Below are positions 16,688 through 57,560 of a DNA stretch of 64,000 nt, piece after piece. Origin of the DNA: Pseudoalteromonas haloplanktis ATCC 14393. GTDB lineage: Bacteria; Pseudomonadota; Gammaproteobacteria; Enterobacterales; Alteromonadaceae. Within the stretch, counting starts at the first letter, position 1, and each line of letters opens with the position of its first letter. Location: the NCBI RefSeq assembly GCF_000238355.1, contig NZ_AHCA01000005.1, forward strand, positions 1 through 64,000, in the 5' to 3' direction. The position numbers and the translations under genes are program-made. Under the pieces are notes generated by a model. It had not been told where the DNA came from. It did no database searches and saw only the letters and a program-made list of their open reading frames with translations.

Positions 16688-16748
16688 GCGCTTGCAGACG
16701 AGTTGTATCTGACGTACACTCGTCGACGAACAATATATAGAATTTTTA

Positions 16749-16842
16749 CTTGTCGGAGTGCCTTGAGTTTTAACTTAAAGGCTGAGATCGCGAAAGCGGG
16801 ATCCGTGAACCTGATCAGGCTAACACCTGCGTAGGGAACAAG
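16749..16842 (+). promoter_or_regulatory. TPP riboswitch (THI element) upstream of thiC
   Basis: Core THI-box segments are present in order: GGAGTGCC, GGCTGAGAT, GGATCCGTGAACCTGATCAG, CACCTGCGTAGGGAA. The closing stem P1 is CTTGT (16749-16753) with ACAAG (16838-16842). About 160 bases follow before the thiC start with no clear U-tract terminator, so control of translation initiation or Rho access is more likely than intrinsic termination. It should reduce expression of the whole thiamine operon when thiamine diphosphate is plentiful. Confidence 0.95.
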
Positions 16843-17002
16843 CTGCCTTAAATGGGTGCTTGTGCGCCTGTTTGGCGTATAAGTACTCTGGCTGCCAAGG
16901 TTAGGTGTACTTTTATAACACCCGCCTACGATCCATGTAGCTGTTGCTACTCTCTATTGCATAGCAATATCTGACAAGACAACCCTTTTAGCAATGAGGT
17001 AA

Positions 17003-18967: not shown

Positions 18968-19054
18968 GCTAGGTTCTAGGGAAGAGACTAGGTTTTAGGA
19001 TGTTGTTAACCTAGAACCTAGAACCTAGAACCTAGAACCTAGAACCTAGAACCT
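18968..19054. repeat. Heptamer array (CTAGAAC)6 with inverted partner, inside the thi operon
   Basis: The 47 bases at 19008-19054 hold 6.7 perfect copies of CTAGAAC. Upstream at 18968-19000 are two inverted relatives (GCTAGGTTCTAGG and ACTAGGTTTTAGG) that can pair with any register of the array. The element fills the only long gap of the operon, between thiC and thiO, and ends 4 bases before the thiO ribosome-binding site, so it may tune thiO-thiF expression. Confidence 0.92.
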
Positions 19055-25512: not shown

Positions 25513-26058
25513 ATGTCTTTTCATAAATCAAATCTTATCTGGCTCGACCTTGAAATGACAGGTCTTGAACCAGCCACAGATAAAATACTCGAAATAGCCA
25601 CTGTTGTCACCGACAGTGAGTTAAACATTTTGGCTGAAGGGCCAACTATTGCTATTCATCAAAGCGATGAGTTACTTGATGGCATGGATGAATGGTGTAC
25701 CACTCAACATGGTCAATCTGGCTTAACAGCACGTTGTAAAGCAAGTACATTTACAGAGCAAGATGCTGTAGAGCAAACCTTAGCATTTTTAAAGCAATGG
25801 GTTCCTGCTGGCGCGTCACCTATGTGTGGAAACTCTATTGGTCAAGACAGACGCTTTATGAATAAGTATATGCGCGAATTGGAAGATTACTTCCATTACC
25901 GTAACTTAGACGTGAGCACCATTAAAGAGCTTGCACGACGCTGGAAACCAGAGGTGTTAGCGCAAGTGAACAAAAAAGGCTCACACCTTGCTTTGGACGA
26001 CATCAAAGATTCGATCATGGAATTAAAAGTCTACCAAGAAAAATTCTTTAATTTGTAA
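25513..26058 (+). CDS. orn: Oligoribonuclease
   Basis: This 181-residue DEDDh 3'-5' exonuclease degrades 2-5 nt RNAs and the pGpG released by c-di-GMP phosphodiesterases such as the EAL proteins in this window. Catalytic residues are visible: D and E in DLEMTGLEP (about 12-14), D in SIGQDRRF, and the H-D pair in [12 protein letters not shown] near 158-163. Length is exactly that of the family. Confidence 0.98.
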
Positions 26059-26065
26059 AAAACAC

Positions 26066-26093
26066 TTGCAAACACATTGAAATATTGTAGAAT
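26066..26093 (+). promoter_or_regulatory. Promoter of the tRNA-Gly locus
   Basis: TTGCAA (26066-26071) and TAGAAT (26088-26093), 16 bp apart, are followed by a GC-rich discriminator (CCTGCCCCGC), typical of stable-RNA promoters under stringent control. It lies 8 bp after the orn stop and about 115 bp before the first tRNA. Confidence 0.75.
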
Positions 26094-26171
26094 CCTGCCC
26101 CGCTTAAGACGATAACCCCCGCGGGGTTAGTGTGTTTGAGTGCAGGTTAAAGGAACGAAGTTTAATATTGA

Positions 26172-26200
26172 TAGAACCTAGAACCTAGAACCTAGAACCT
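26172..26200. repeat. Heptamer array (CTAGAAC)4 in the tRNA-Gly leader
   Basis: Four copies of the same heptamer as in the thiC-thiO gap (TAGAACC register) lie between the stable-RNA promoter and the first tRNA-Gly. They would be transcribed as part of the 5' leader removed by RNase P. Confidence 0.9.
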
Positions 26201-26209
26201 GAATATGAT

Positions 26210-26285
26210 GCGGCACTAGCTCAGTTGGTAGAGCGCGACCTTGCCAAGGTCGAGGTCACGAGTTCGAGCCTCGTGTGCCGCTCCA
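26210..26285 (+). tRNA. tRNA-Gly (GCC), copy 1
   Basis: A 76-nt tRNA with CCA encoded. The acceptor arms are GCGGCAC and GTGCCGC. The D arm contains AGCTCAGTTGGTAGAGC, the anticodon loop is TTGCCAA (GCC), and the T arm is CACGA-GTTCGAGCC-TCGTG. The trailer can form a hairpin in which the CCA pairs (CCAATTTCT/AGAAATTGG, 26283-26306). Confidence 0.97.
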
Positions 26286-26383: not shown

Positions 26384-26401
26384 ATGCGGCACTAGCTCAG
26401 T
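26384..26401 (+). pseudogene. 5' fragment of tRNA-Gly
   Basis: Eighteen bases identical to the first 18 of the intact tRNA (acceptor 5' strand and start of the D arm) break off at TTG. About 62 unrelated bases follow before the next full tRNA. There is no 3' half, so no tRNA can form. It is a remnant of a duplicated and interrupted copy. Confidence 0.9.
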
Positions 26402-26463
26402 TGCCAGAACGTTTTACCGCGACTTGTCGCGCACCAACGGACAAATTACTGGCTATTTTGAAT

Positions 26464-26539
26464 GCGGCACTAGCTCAGTTGGTAGAGCGCGACCTTGCCA
26501 AGGTCGAGGTCACGAGTTCGAGCCTCGTGTGCCGCTCCA
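26464..26539 (+). tRNA. tRNA-Gly (GCC), copy 2
   Basis: It is identical to copy 1 over all 76 nt including the CCA. The two copies are about 180 bp apart and probably share the upstream promoter. The tandem tRNA-derived units begin directly after its CCA. Confidence 0.97.
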
Positions 26540-26844
26540 ATCTTTATCTAATATCAAAAAAAACATGCCAAGGTCGAACTAAGCCATAAGCAGTTCGAGT
26601 CTCGTGTGCCGCTCCAATCTTTATCTAATATCAAAAAAAACATGCCAAGGTCGAACTAAGTCATAAGCAGTTCGAGCCTCGTGTGCCGCTCCAATCTTTA
26701 TCTAATATCAAAAAAAAACATGCCAAGGTCGAACTAAGTCATAAGCAGTTCGAGCCTCGTGTGCCGCTCCAATCTTTATCTAATATCAAAAAAACATGCC
26801 AAGGTCGAACTAAGCCATAAGCAGTTCGAGCCTCATGTGCCGCT
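26540..26844. repeat. Four tandem 77-bp units built on the tRNA-Gly 3' half
   Basis: Each unit has four parts: a spacer ATCTTTATCTAATATC plus an A run; TGCCAAGGTCGA (anticodon loop onward, identical to the tRNA); 15 novel bases; and 24 bases of the T loop, acceptor 3' strand and CCA. Units occupy 26540-26616, 26617-26693, 26694-26771 and 26772-26844; the last lacks CCA. The acceptor 5' strand and the T-stem 5' strand are missing, so they cannot be tRNAs. Instead TCGAACT pairs with AGTTCGA inside each unit. On the minus strand this 11-bp interrupted stem is followed by T7-T9, like a terminator. Confidence 0.92.
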
Positions 26845-26947
26845 GGATTCTCTTCTAAGTGAATATTCATCTTTTATTTATTAAAACCGCCACAAATAAA
26901 AGAAGTTAATAGTTTTACTTAATCAGCTGTTGGAGTAATGCTTTTCT

Positions 26948-27073
26948 GATAGCTGATAGCTGATAGCTGATAGCTGATAGCTGATAGCTGATAGCTGATA
27001 GCTGATAGCTGATAGCTGATAGCTGATAGCTGATAGCTGATAGCTGATAGCTGATAGCTGATAGCTGATAGCT
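26948..27073. repeat. Heptamer array (GATAGCT)18
   Basis: Eighteen perfect copies of GATAGCT (126 bp) end exactly at the stop codon side of the minus-strand yjbQ gene. The complete absence of variation implies recent expansion or active homogenisation. The unit differs from the CTNGAA family but has the same length. Confidence 0.97.
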
Positions 27074-27499
27074 TTATATTTGCCCTTGCAATGTCACAAC
27101 AATACGTCTTGCGCCACCATGATCACGATGCTCACCTAAATAAACTCCCTGCCAAGTGCCTAGTTGTAAGCGCCCTTGATTAATTGGAATAGTCAGTTCA
27201 CAACCTAAAACACTGGATTTAATGTGAGCAGGCATGTCGTCATCGCCTTCATAGTCATGGCGGTAATAAGGTTGGCACTCGGGAACAAATTTATTGAAGT
27301 GGCTTTCCATATCCATACGAACCGTTGGATCGGCATTTTCGTTGATAGTTAAGCTTGCTGAAGTGTGCTGAATAAAAAGATGTAATAAGCCAATTTGATA
27401 ATCAGCTATTTCAGGTAGTTGGCTAATTATTTCATTGTCAATAATATGAAAGCCTCGTGAGCGAGGCTTCAGTTGGATGGTTTTTTGTAACCAGCTCAT
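27074..27499 (-). CDS. yjbQ: YjbQ family protein (UPF0047; reported secondary thiamine-phosphate synthase)
   Basis: This 141-residue protein has family blocks [20 protein letters not shown] (about 47-66), [22 protein letters not shown] (about 79-101) and [20 protein letters not shown]. These form the metal-binding, His-rich pocket of the fold. Members were reported to have weak thiamine-phosphate synthase activity, which is interesting given the thiamine operon 4 kb away. Its start overlaps the CheX-like stop by 4 bp. It ends against the GATAGCT array. Confidence 0.88.
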
Positions 27500-43480: not shown

Positions 43481-43765
43481 ATGATTAGATTTGAACAGCT
43501 TCATGTTTGGCAGCGCTTCGCTGATTTGGCTTGTGAGGTTTATATTCACTTTAAAACAAGCAAAGAGTTTGGGCTTAAAGATCAAATTACTCGCTCAGCT
43601 CTTTCTATTTCTTCAAATATAGCTGAAGGCATGAGCGTGAAACGACTAAAGGTTATGCACGTTTTTTATCATACGCAAAAAGAAGTTGTGTGGAATTATT
43701 TCCAAAATGTTGACCGGTCTAATGAATACGGTCAACTCTTGGGAACCTTGAACCTTGAACCTTGA
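43481..43765 (+). pseudogene. Decayed four-helix-bundle (23S rRNA IVS-type) protein gene
   Basis: The first 50 residues are normal for the family: FEQLHVWQRFADLACEVY and LKDQITRSALSISSNIAEG. After NIAEG the family motif continues only in the +2 frame (ERETTK..ARFLSYAK.SC.EL), which points to loss of one base near 43628-43633. The family's C-terminal KMLTGLMN appears in the third frame directly after that, so about 70-100 bases between are also deleted. The reading frame then runs into the heptamer array. This family is often encoded within 23S rRNA insertions or as orphan genes; here it is an orphan and non-functional. Confidence 0.85.
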
Positions 43766-43804
43766 ACCTTGAACCTTGAACCTTGAACCTTGAACCTTGA
43801 ACCT
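43743..43804. repeat. Heptamer array (GAACCTT)8
   Basis: Eight full copies plus six bases of GAACCTT lie between the decayed gene and the end of slmA, ending 3 bp before the slmA stop codon side. In the CTTGAAC register it is a one-base variant of the CTAGAAC unit used elsewhere. Confidence 0.95.
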
Positions 43805-56267: not shown

Positions 56268-57560
56268 TTAAATTTTAATGCTCATGCCATCTGATAATGA
56301 ATAAAAATAAGCACGGGAGGCTGGAATTAAGCCAACGATAAAACCGGCCGCCATAATAGCGCCGATCAGCATCAGTTCATAGCTCGATAGCATAGCAATG
56401 GTGATAGTGATCCCTGCGTGGCTTTGTAAGTAGCCTGAAGCGAGGGCCATGAGTAAATAAAATAATCCGCAGCCCGCTAAGCAACCTAAAAATGTGGTCA
56501 ATAAGGATTCAATGCTGATCAAGGCGAATAGGTGCCAAGGTCTTGCACCCACTGAACGCAAAATTGCTAATTCACGACGGCGTTGATTGAGGTTCGCTAA
56601 TAGCGTAGTGAGCATGCCTAATAGGCTTACTAATACTACGACTATAGAAAACAGCAGTAAGATTTTTTCAACAATGGTGAGCATTTCCCACAATTCACGT
56701 AATGTGACACCGGGCATTATGGCGAGCAATGCTTCATCTTTAAACTGGTTGATATTACGGCGTACCTGGAGAGTATAAAGTGGTGAATCAAAACCAATTA
56801 AAAATGCGGTAATTTGTTTTGGGTTGCCAATCAAATCAGTAGGCTTTTCATGTTCATGTTCATGTTCATGTTCATGTTCATGTTCATGTTCATGTTCATG
56901 TTCATGTTCATGGCTGGTATGGTTTGTACTATGAATTTGTTCAATTGCAGCTAATGGGATATGCAGCGTTTTATCAACAGGGGTGCCGGTGGCATTTAAA
57001 ACGCCGACAACCGTAAAAGGGTTGTCATCATGATGATGAAAGCTCGTGTTACCCATGCCGTGGGAAATAATAATACTATCGCCAAGCGAGTAGCCTAAGC
57101 TCTTGGCGACTTGAGCGCCGAGCACAACTTCATTTAAATGCTGAAAAGGCCGCCCTTGGCTAAAACTAAGTGGCTGCTTTTTAGCAAATTTATAATGCTG
57201 GAAATAGTCTGCAGAAGTGCCCAGTACGGCTTGACCTTTATGGCTATCGCCAAGTGATAAGGGGATACTCCATTTTACGCCGCGTTGTTGTTTTATATAT
57301 TGATAACTTTGCCAACTAACCCCGTTATTAGCGTGACCAATGCGAAAAACTGACGACAGTAACAGCTGAATATCACCCGTTCGTGCACCAACAATGAGAT
57401 CAGTACCTGAAATGGTATTACTAAAACTGCTTTTGGCATCAACACGTACGCGTTCAATACTCAGTAATAGCATTACGCTGATAGCAATAGTCAACAAGGT
57501 CAGAAACACACTTGCACGGCGGTTGTATAGGCTGCTTATAGCAAGCTTTACTAGGACCAT
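56268..57560 (-). CDS. MacB/FtsX-type ABC permease with a (His-Glu)11 tract
   Basis: The 430-residue permease has a membrane helix at the N-terminus (about 17-35), a large extracytoplasmic domain (about 40-300) and three C-terminal helices (about 300-420), the MacB/LolC-like plan. In the extracytoplasmic domain (about residues 217-238) an uninterrupted HE dipeptide is repeated eleven times, probably binding zinc or another divalent metal. It is encoded by a perfect 6-bp microsatellite, so repeat changes keep the frame. It pairs with the ATPase upstream, whose stop abuts its start. Confidence 0.88.
   Translation of the reverse strand: MVLVKLAISSLYNRRASVFLTLLTIAISVMLLLSIERVRVDAKSSFSNTISGTDLIVGARTGDIQLLLSSVFRIGHANNGVSWQSYQYIKQQRGVKWSIPLSLGDSHKGQAVLGTSADYFQHYKFAKKQPLSFSQGRPFQHLNEVVLGAQVAKSLGYSLGDSIIISHGMGNTSFHHHDDNPFTVVGVLNATGTPVDKTLHIPLAAIEQIHSTNHTSHEHEHEHEHEHEHEHEHEHEHEKPTDLIGNPKQITAFLIGFDSPLYTLQVRRNINQFKDEALLAIMPGVTLRELWEMLTIVEKILLLFSIVVVLVSLLGMLTTLLANLNQRRRELAILRSVGARPWHLFALISIESLLTTFLGCLAGCGLFYLLMALASGYLQSHAGITITIAMLSSYELMLIGAIMAAGFIVGLIPASRAYFYSLSDGMSIKI
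56847..56912. repeat. In-frame hexamer microsatellite (TTCATG)11
   Basis: Eleven perfect copies of TTCATG (CATGAA on the coding strand) encode His-Glu repeats inside the permease. Both codons are used without synonymous variation, which shows expansion by slippage. Confidence 0.97.

Follow-up and report, generated by a model that had tools for sequence, protein, structure and literature searches.

In the window, the 64,000-nucleotide stretch of Pseudoalteromonas haloplanktis ATCC 14393 DNA analysed here, two tRNA-Gly(GCC) genes are accompanied by two kinds of repeat made from parts of tRNA-Gly. Four units carrying its 3′ end follow the second gene, and judging from sequence comparison, their 30-nt hairpin core, AAGGTCGAACTAAGTCATAAGCAGTTCGAG, has accumulated far fewer changes than neutral sites and appears to be constrained. 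A unit carrying its 5′ end lies upstream of the same gene and belongs to a kind of element found widely in the genus and in three other families of the order, in which compensatory changes in the stems, the mark of a structured RNA element, were observed. The window lies on contig 51 of the 5.02-Mb genome, which has a second tRNA-Gly locus on contig 53. The features of the window locus are as follows.

25513..26058, plus strand: orn-like exonuclease gene, which we take to be orn, upstream of the tRNA-Gly genes (translation; Pfam RNase_T, E 8e-38)
26066..26093, plus strand: promoter-like site TTGCAA-16-TAGAAT, then a GC-rich stretch (pattern scan)
26210..26285, plus strand: tRNA-Gly(GCC) gene 1 (ARAGORN, Rfam)
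26386..26463, plus strand: 5′ unit, tRNA-Gly nt 1-18 plus a three-step hairpin, head-to-tail with gene 2 (covariance model, 91.4 bits for a sequence of the model's own training set)
26464..26539, plus strand: tRNA-Gly(GCC) gene 2 (ARAGORN, Rfam)
26540..26616, plus strand: 3′ unit 1, CCA end, stem arms 26574-26580 and 26592-26598
26617..26693, plus strand: 3′ unit 2, CCA end, stem arms 26651-26657 and 26669-26675
26694..26771, plus strand: 3′ unit 3, 78 bp, CCA end, stem arms 26729-26735 and 26747-26753
26772..26847, plus strand: 3′ unit 4, 76 bp, GGA end, CATG for CGTG, stem arms 26805-26811 and 26823-26829
26946-27073: heptamer array between the 3′ units and the yjbQ-like gene (TRF)
27074..27499, minus strand: yjbQ-like gene of 141 aa, presumably yjbQ, convergent with the tRNA-Gly genes (translation; Pfam UPF0047, E 5.6e-40)

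The promoter-like site is weak by itself, because two sites of the TTGCAA/TAGAAT type were present in the region against 3.4 expected from shuffles. Its hexamers are identical in locus L047 and also, by eye, in L072. A GC-rich stretch after the promoter is a feature of stable-RNA promoters. Between this site and gene 1 there is a hairpin, TAACCCCCGCGGGGTTA (26113-26129), with similar sequence in L072 and L047. TRF detected five 7-bp tandem arrays in the window, at 1-113, 19008-19054, 26172-26200, 26946-27073 and 43743-43804, with the units CGAAACT, AACCTAG, TAGAACC, CTGATAG and GAACCTT. Several relatives also have heptamer arrays between tRNA-Gly and yjbQ, with different units. Farther from the locus, the window contains 11 perfect copies of TTCATG (56847-56912, TRF) and a TPP riboswitch (16744-16854, 73.8 bits, Rfam).

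A first-pass annotation, made from the sequence alone, had described four tandem units of about 77 bp after the second tRNA-Gly, derived from that tRNA, with an encoded CCA in three of them and a hairpin across the former T loop. All of this was borne out. The annotation did not anticipate the constraint on the core, the longer hairpin of the opposite strand or the far more widespread 5′ counterpart, which are described below. TRF reported a period of 77, 4.3 copies, 96% matches and a score of 616 over 26515-26844. Each unit carries TGCCAAGGTCGA, found also in the tRNA anticodon arm, 14 new bases, ACTAAGYCATAAGC, in place of GGTCACG, and then AGTTCGAG from the T loop to the acceptor end; units 1 to 3 end in CCA and unit 4 in GGA. 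The array is a tandem repeat of the tRNA-Gly 3′ end and a spacer that includes an anticodon-arm piece. The motif ATGCCAAGGTCGAACTAA, with up to three mismatches allowed, occurred four times, each time exactly, compared with 0.09 occurrences expected from shuffles. ARAGORN and Rfam detected only the two full tRNA-Gly genes and none of the 3′ units as tRNA genes. A BLAST search of the strain's own genome found no unit copies elsewhere; its other matches were tRNA-Gly 3′ ends and three matches of 14-15 nt, whose centres lie inside long open frames.

The arms TCGAACT and AGTTCGA pair perfectly in all four window copies. The first-pass annotation had noted that the new segment supplies ACT after TCGA, and its account of the stem calls for a correction. 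The TCGA found in each of the tRNA-derived segments is self-complementary, and AGT likewise stems from the tRNA; therefore only ACT is new, and the tRNA sequence by itself already provides four of the seven pairs. A perfect match of three letters is expected by chance about once in 64 trials. The seven-pair stem is less remarkable than its appearance suggests.

Each window unit also contains a short open frame, ATG CCA AGG TCG AAC TAA (MPRSN; 26565-26582 in unit 1 and the same place in the others), which we considered and set aside as a probable chance occurrence. P. ostreae and P. rhizosphaerae retain the frame from ATG to TAA, as does the first P. prydzensis unit; genome G091 and the other P. 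prydzensis unit have lost its start. The changes across copies are non-synonymous, and no ribosome site was seen for it in the 3′ units.

A search with spacer and core found 3′ units in five of 108 Pseudoalteromonas genomes. The window genome has four copies, P. prydzensis (MAG HyVt-346, G092) and P. ostreae hOe-66 (G083) two each, and P. rhizosphaerae RA15 (G019) and G091 one each. Matches at E ≤0.01 were obtained in 13 genomes; the eight non-carriers among these showed matches of 19-29 nt, of which seven were judged by coordinates and one, the 19-nt match of locus L051 (G123), was read directly and lies inside an open frame. The five carriers form one clade (support 0.845) in a midpoint-rooted yjbQ tree of 31 loci, these being 31 of 67 loci with a yjbQ match, many of which repeat one genome; a single origin is therefore simplest. 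When the unit spacers were compared with the trailers of non-carriers (26 trailers by four spacers), locus L017 gave an alignment at P 0.01, uncorrected, and five A-rich trailers matched the P. prydzensis unit spacer, probably through composition.

Among the five carrier species, parsimony assigned two changes to the 14 new bases; this count used the best window copy, left a C/T difference between window copies uncounted and took the one-base deletion in G091 as a change. The fourfold sites of yjbQ in the same five species had 49 changes at 38 sites. At that rate about 18 changes would be expected in the 14 bases (Poisson P 2.6e-6), a comparison limited by the short length, the choice of the best copy and yjbQ as the yardstick, but with a large gap: the 14 bases change about nine times less than fourfold sites. 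Between pairs of species, yjbQ differs at 0.30-0.56 of fourfold sites, while their best copies show 0-2 differences in the 14 new bases and 0-4 in the 30 bases of the core. For the spacers, comparison of the four species aligned over the whole spacer gave differences at 2-14 of 29 columns; the P. rhizosphaerae row is without the upstream spacer, so that its distances (17-23 of 32) are inflated and were left out of this range. Conversion by the tRNA cannot keep the 14 new bases, because the tRNA does not contain them. As for a donor outside the array, BLAST against the strain's own genome found no full second copy and only 14-15 nt matches in two open frames. The hairpin core thus probably has some function.

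The reading we favour, tentatively and with rather less than even confidence, is that the hairpin marks transcript ends between the tRNA-Gly genes and yjbQ in a terminator-like manner. The spacer piece would be the remnant of a broken tRNA-Gly copy, and the copy number and intact CCA ends would be side effects of unequal recombination and of conversion involving the tRNA gene. Selection would act on the hairpin. Read on the yjbQ strand, the core forms 13 pairs and leads into a U-rich tract; there it may act like a terminator and stop yjbQ transcripts from running into the tRNA genes. On the tRNA strand the same core would form a hairpin in the 3′ trailer. An example of the yjbQ-strand structure is found in unit 2.

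26633..26686, minus strand: hairpin and U-tract on the yjbQ strand (folding, terminator scan)

On this strand the core reads CGAGGcUCGAACUG-loop-UAGUUCGACCUUG, with 13 pairs in window units 2, 3 and 4 and in the first P. prydzensis unit. The stem is followed by GCAUG, or five similar bases, and then, about 5 nt past its end, by the U-rich tract; in P. ostreae and P. rhizosphaerae this tract is short or has interruptions. The hairpin was predicted at -16.4 kcal/mol (z -2.64) in window unit 2 and at -15.3 (z -3.46) in P. prydzensis; it was ordinary in window unit 1 (-13.2, z -1.43) and P. ostreae (-13.3, z -0.60). Among terminator-like sites of the yjbQ strand, the unit hairpin ranks first in each of the five carriers, at -6.4 to -13.7, and is better than the site of most of the 21 non-carriers, which range from none to -9.5. 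The Mann-Whitney test gave P 0.002 (26 of the 31 tree loci), with intergenic length and kinship ignored and an absent site set to 0. In the four carriers other than the window, the site was matched by 0, 4, 6 and, in G091, 40 of 60 shuffles; by this measure one carrier has a clear site, two have marginal ones and G091 has none. A scan requiring a U-tract within 2 nt and a loop of 3-8 flagged none of the window or P. ostreae units. Strong sites are lacking in the 21 relatives that have no units, so none seems to be needed. The heptamer array farther downstream, read on the tRNA strand, reaches -18.8 in both the window and G091, a better score than any unit hairpin has on the yjbQ strand.

Pairing was also compared between the strands. 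Paired cells numbered 123 of 130 on the yjbQ strand and 104 of 130 on the tRNA strand, with a pair list that came from the yjbQ-strand fold and favours it; the higher value is largely due to two G-U pairs there that are A-C on the tRNA strand. By our own reading, two substitution events in the stem break pairing on the tRNA strand only and two on the yjbQ strand only, and the substitutions would thus favour neither strand. On the tRNA strand, the fold of unit 1 gave z -0.61, -1.65 and -1.87 for 52, 61 and 64 nt.

Somewhat unlikely, in our judgement, is a nearly neutral array, in which a partial tRNA-Gly duplication was multiplied by slippage and by unequal crossing-over of repeated tRNA 3′ ends, with no further function. 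The head-to-tail tandem arrangement, the variation in copy number from one to four and the restriction to one clade are what such a history would produce. The state of the stem fits it as well. All 10 known copies, nine of them distinct, are in the alignments. On the tRNA strand, pairing in the seven-pair stem comes to 95.2% and five pairs are invariant, but compensatory change, taken as the mark of a structured RNA, was seen at none of the seven pairs in the nine distinct rows. Two pairs are broken in three of these: the C-G pair in P. prydzensis unit 2 and G091, and the A-U pair in P. rhizosphaerae. The first-pass annotation had named decay without compensation, together with a lack of transcripts past the second tRNA, as what would refute its reading. 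Decay of this kind did occur in these three copies, but the 14 new bases appear constrained all the same. Unit ends resembling the adjacent tRNA, and the decay in G091 and P. prydzensis unit 2, are likewise in keeping with neutrality. Against neutrality stands the roughly ninefold deficit of changes in 14 bases for which BLAST found no full donor copy outside the array.

An unlikely alternative is that the tRNA strand yields a 3′ external transcribed spacer RNA. Here an RNase would free the hairpin from the tRNA precursor, its conserved loop would titrate a small RNA or protein, much as is reported of a tRNA-transcript 3′ spacer in E. coli, and additional copies would raise the dose. The units do lie in the trailer of the last tRNA-Gly, behind an A/T-rich stretch, and the loop is conserved as well as the stem. 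As for a partner, the four inspected matches of 14-19 nt to the unit all lie in open frames and look like chance.

The products proposed in the first-pass annotation, tRNA-like 3′ fragments that end in CCA and compete for RNases, the CCA enzyme or T-loop enzymes, are very improbable, even though the CCA and the T-loop motif are present in three window units. What decays is the very part of the unit that would make such a product tRNA-like: window unit 4, P. prydzensis unit 2 and the G091 unit have lost the acceptor/CCA end and kept the hairpin core. The 5′ strand of the T-stem is absent altogether. The likeness of the ends to a tRNA has another explanation. P. ostreae and P. rhizosphaerae have a changed acceptor pair, GCGGTAC..GTACCGC, only in the tRNA adjoining the units, and their units share GTACCGC with it. 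The tRNA-like ends match the adjacent, changed tRNA and are therefore best explained by recombination or conversion within the locus; they provide no evidence of selection on a tRNA-like product. The possibility that 5′ fragments and 3′ units pair via the acceptor strand found no support in the same two species, since the units match the adjacent tRNA (GTACCGC) and not the 5′ fragments. A footprint of an integrative element using tRNA-Gly as its attachment site is scarcely credible: copied tRNA 3′ ends are typical scars of element attachment, but no plasmid match was found, which also led us to reject a plasmid origin, the period is a regular 77 bp with no genes between units, and new sequence separates the anticodon-arm and T-loop pieces. 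We therefore place the terminator-like reading before the nearly neutral array and the trailer RNA.

The unit upstream of gene 2 begins with nt 1-18 of tRNA-Gly. BLAST (E 0.001) found relatives in 41 of 108 genus genomes. A covariance model, R1, was built from 53 representatives after one of 54 was dropped at a contig edge, and found the unit in 89 of 108 genomes at E 1e-5, counted by eye. R1 scores true tRNA-Gly at about E 1e-3, and a tally of 101 of 108 was therefore cut to this number, the other 12 genomes lying above E 1e-5. Ten of 118 candidate units were excluded as chance matches, incomplete, N-filled or real tRNAs. In 107 of the 108 distinct units, the next unit or a full tRNA-Gly begins 75-86 nt from the start; the last lies at a contig edge. 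Outside the genus, a search of 148 genomes of the order found 5′ units in seven genomes of three other families, whose loci were read. The units precede tRNA-Gly in all seven loci, in tandem in five and singly in two, one of the latter belonging to the only genome of its family. Loci L103 (Clostridium) and L104 (Enterococcus) were left out as chance pattern matches. Positions of the 5′ unit elsewhere are listed here.

Window genome, contig 53: more copies, at the second tRNA-Gly locus
Loci L041, L042 and L135-L141: further 5′ units

Folding predicted a three-step hairpin, P1-P2-P3, in many units of all four families. In P1, part of the tRNA-derived start pairs with the unit's own 3′ part; the start strand is the D-stem strand in Pseudoalteromonas and one other family, and nt 4-9 in the other two. 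P3 resembles an anticodon stem, and P2 lies between P1 and P3. In 73% of the 108 Pseudoalteromonas copies, which are related to one another, the D-stem strand pairs into the 3′ part, compared with 25% of shuffles that keep the first 18 nt. In an alignment made from sequence only, P2 and P3 together had 92.8% paired cells, a share that dropped to 51.8% or less on sliding. Two-sided changes were seen in 18 cells compared with 4.9 in shuffles (reached in 0 of 500), and the covariation score was 0.233 compared with 0.150 (0 of 500). The number of pairs with two-sided changes (3 of 10) was not unusual (311 of 500 shuffles), nor were the pair types (63 of 500). A model-fitted alignment, which is biased towards the structure and used 150 of 178 model matches, 28 being left out, agrees on the pairing of P2 and P3. 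P1 was 98.9% paired in another family, with C-G replaced by U-A in two of 13 sequences and a score reached by 22 of 500 shuffles. On contig 53, one unit has P1 arms TCAGT/ACTGA where its neighbours have TTAGT/ACTAA. A single unit folds mildly better than shuffles (mean z -1.53; -0.29 to -3.77 in another set). RNAalifold recovered the structure only in part from the raw alignment, in our opinion because P1 and P2 shift between subfamilies.

These results suggest, at a confidence that falls only a little short of even, that the tRNA-Gly loci of the order carry an undescribed family of tRNA-derived hairpin RNAs that includes the 5′ kind and the 3′ units. The 5′ kind retains about 14-18 nt from the start of the tRNA, and the window's 3′ units would be its young counterpart, confined to one clade. 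Both could serve to tie up partial tRNA copies in hairpins of their own, which would prevent misfolding with the genuine tRNA of the same precursor; alternatively, both could steer the processing of the tRNA precursor. At position 1250 on the minus strand of locus L019 (G026), within a tRNA-Gly array, there is a tRNA-Gly copy with bases missing in the anticodon loop. It is possibly an early step toward units of partial tRNA.

Repeats derived from tRNA and lying beside tRNA genes are readily dismissed as pseudogene debris. In this case, one segment of a repeat shows more conservation than would be expected of neutral debris, and a sister repeat from the other end of the tRNA retains its hairpin through compensatory changes. 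If our reading is true, bacterial tRNA operons can make new RNA structures out of broken tRNA copies, and those of tRNA-Gly contain a structured spacer element absent from the Rfam library searched. In that library, the tRNA-Gly locus of the window gave only the two tRNAs and a snoRNA match at 17.9 bits (threshold 45) up to E 1, and at the loci of six relatives, at gathering scores, neither the 3′ nor the 5′ unit matched a non-tRNA family.

Several known systems resemble these repeats in part. In E. coli tyrT, tandem repeats that carry the tRNA 3′ end lie downstream of the tRNA gene. The 3′ units share the tandem arrangement, the downstream position and the tRNA 3′ end with these rtT repeats, but they come from another tRNA, have a 77-bp period and contain an anticodon-arm piece and a new hairpin. 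The first-pass annotation was right to separate them from rtT, as no RtT match was obtained with Rfam up to E 1. RtT is described as an RNA that is released from tRNA operons and connected to the stringent response (PMC4986893).

A 3′ external transcribed spacer of E. coli reportedly acts as a sponge (Lalaouna et al. 2015, as cited in PMC12559287). Like that spacer, the 3′ unit is a conserved piece of RNA in the trailer of a tRNA operon; unlike it, the window repeats derive from the tRNA itself and the locus lies next to orn. The sponge spacer reportedly belongs to the glyW-cysT-leuZ transcript of E. coli, and the position next to orn is presumably the place of glyVXY there. Intrinsic terminators have, as the 3′ unit does on the yjbQ strand, a hairpin followed by a U-rich tract, but the unit has about 5 nt between stem and U-tract, is derived from a tRNA and occurs in tandem copies.

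Among the titles of the matches listed in a literature search that covered subscription journals thinly, none concerned tRNA-Gly repeats of these kinds. The 3′ array belongs with the tRNA-derived repeats of tRNA trailers, already a known type. The 5′ and 3′ units are alike in being partial tRNA-Gly copies refolded into new hairpins and arrayed beside tRNA-Gly. They differ in that the 5′ unit comes from the 5′ end of the tRNA, lies upstream, covaries, and is spread through the genus and into other families. The 5′ unit may deserve a higher standing in novelty than the 3′ array.
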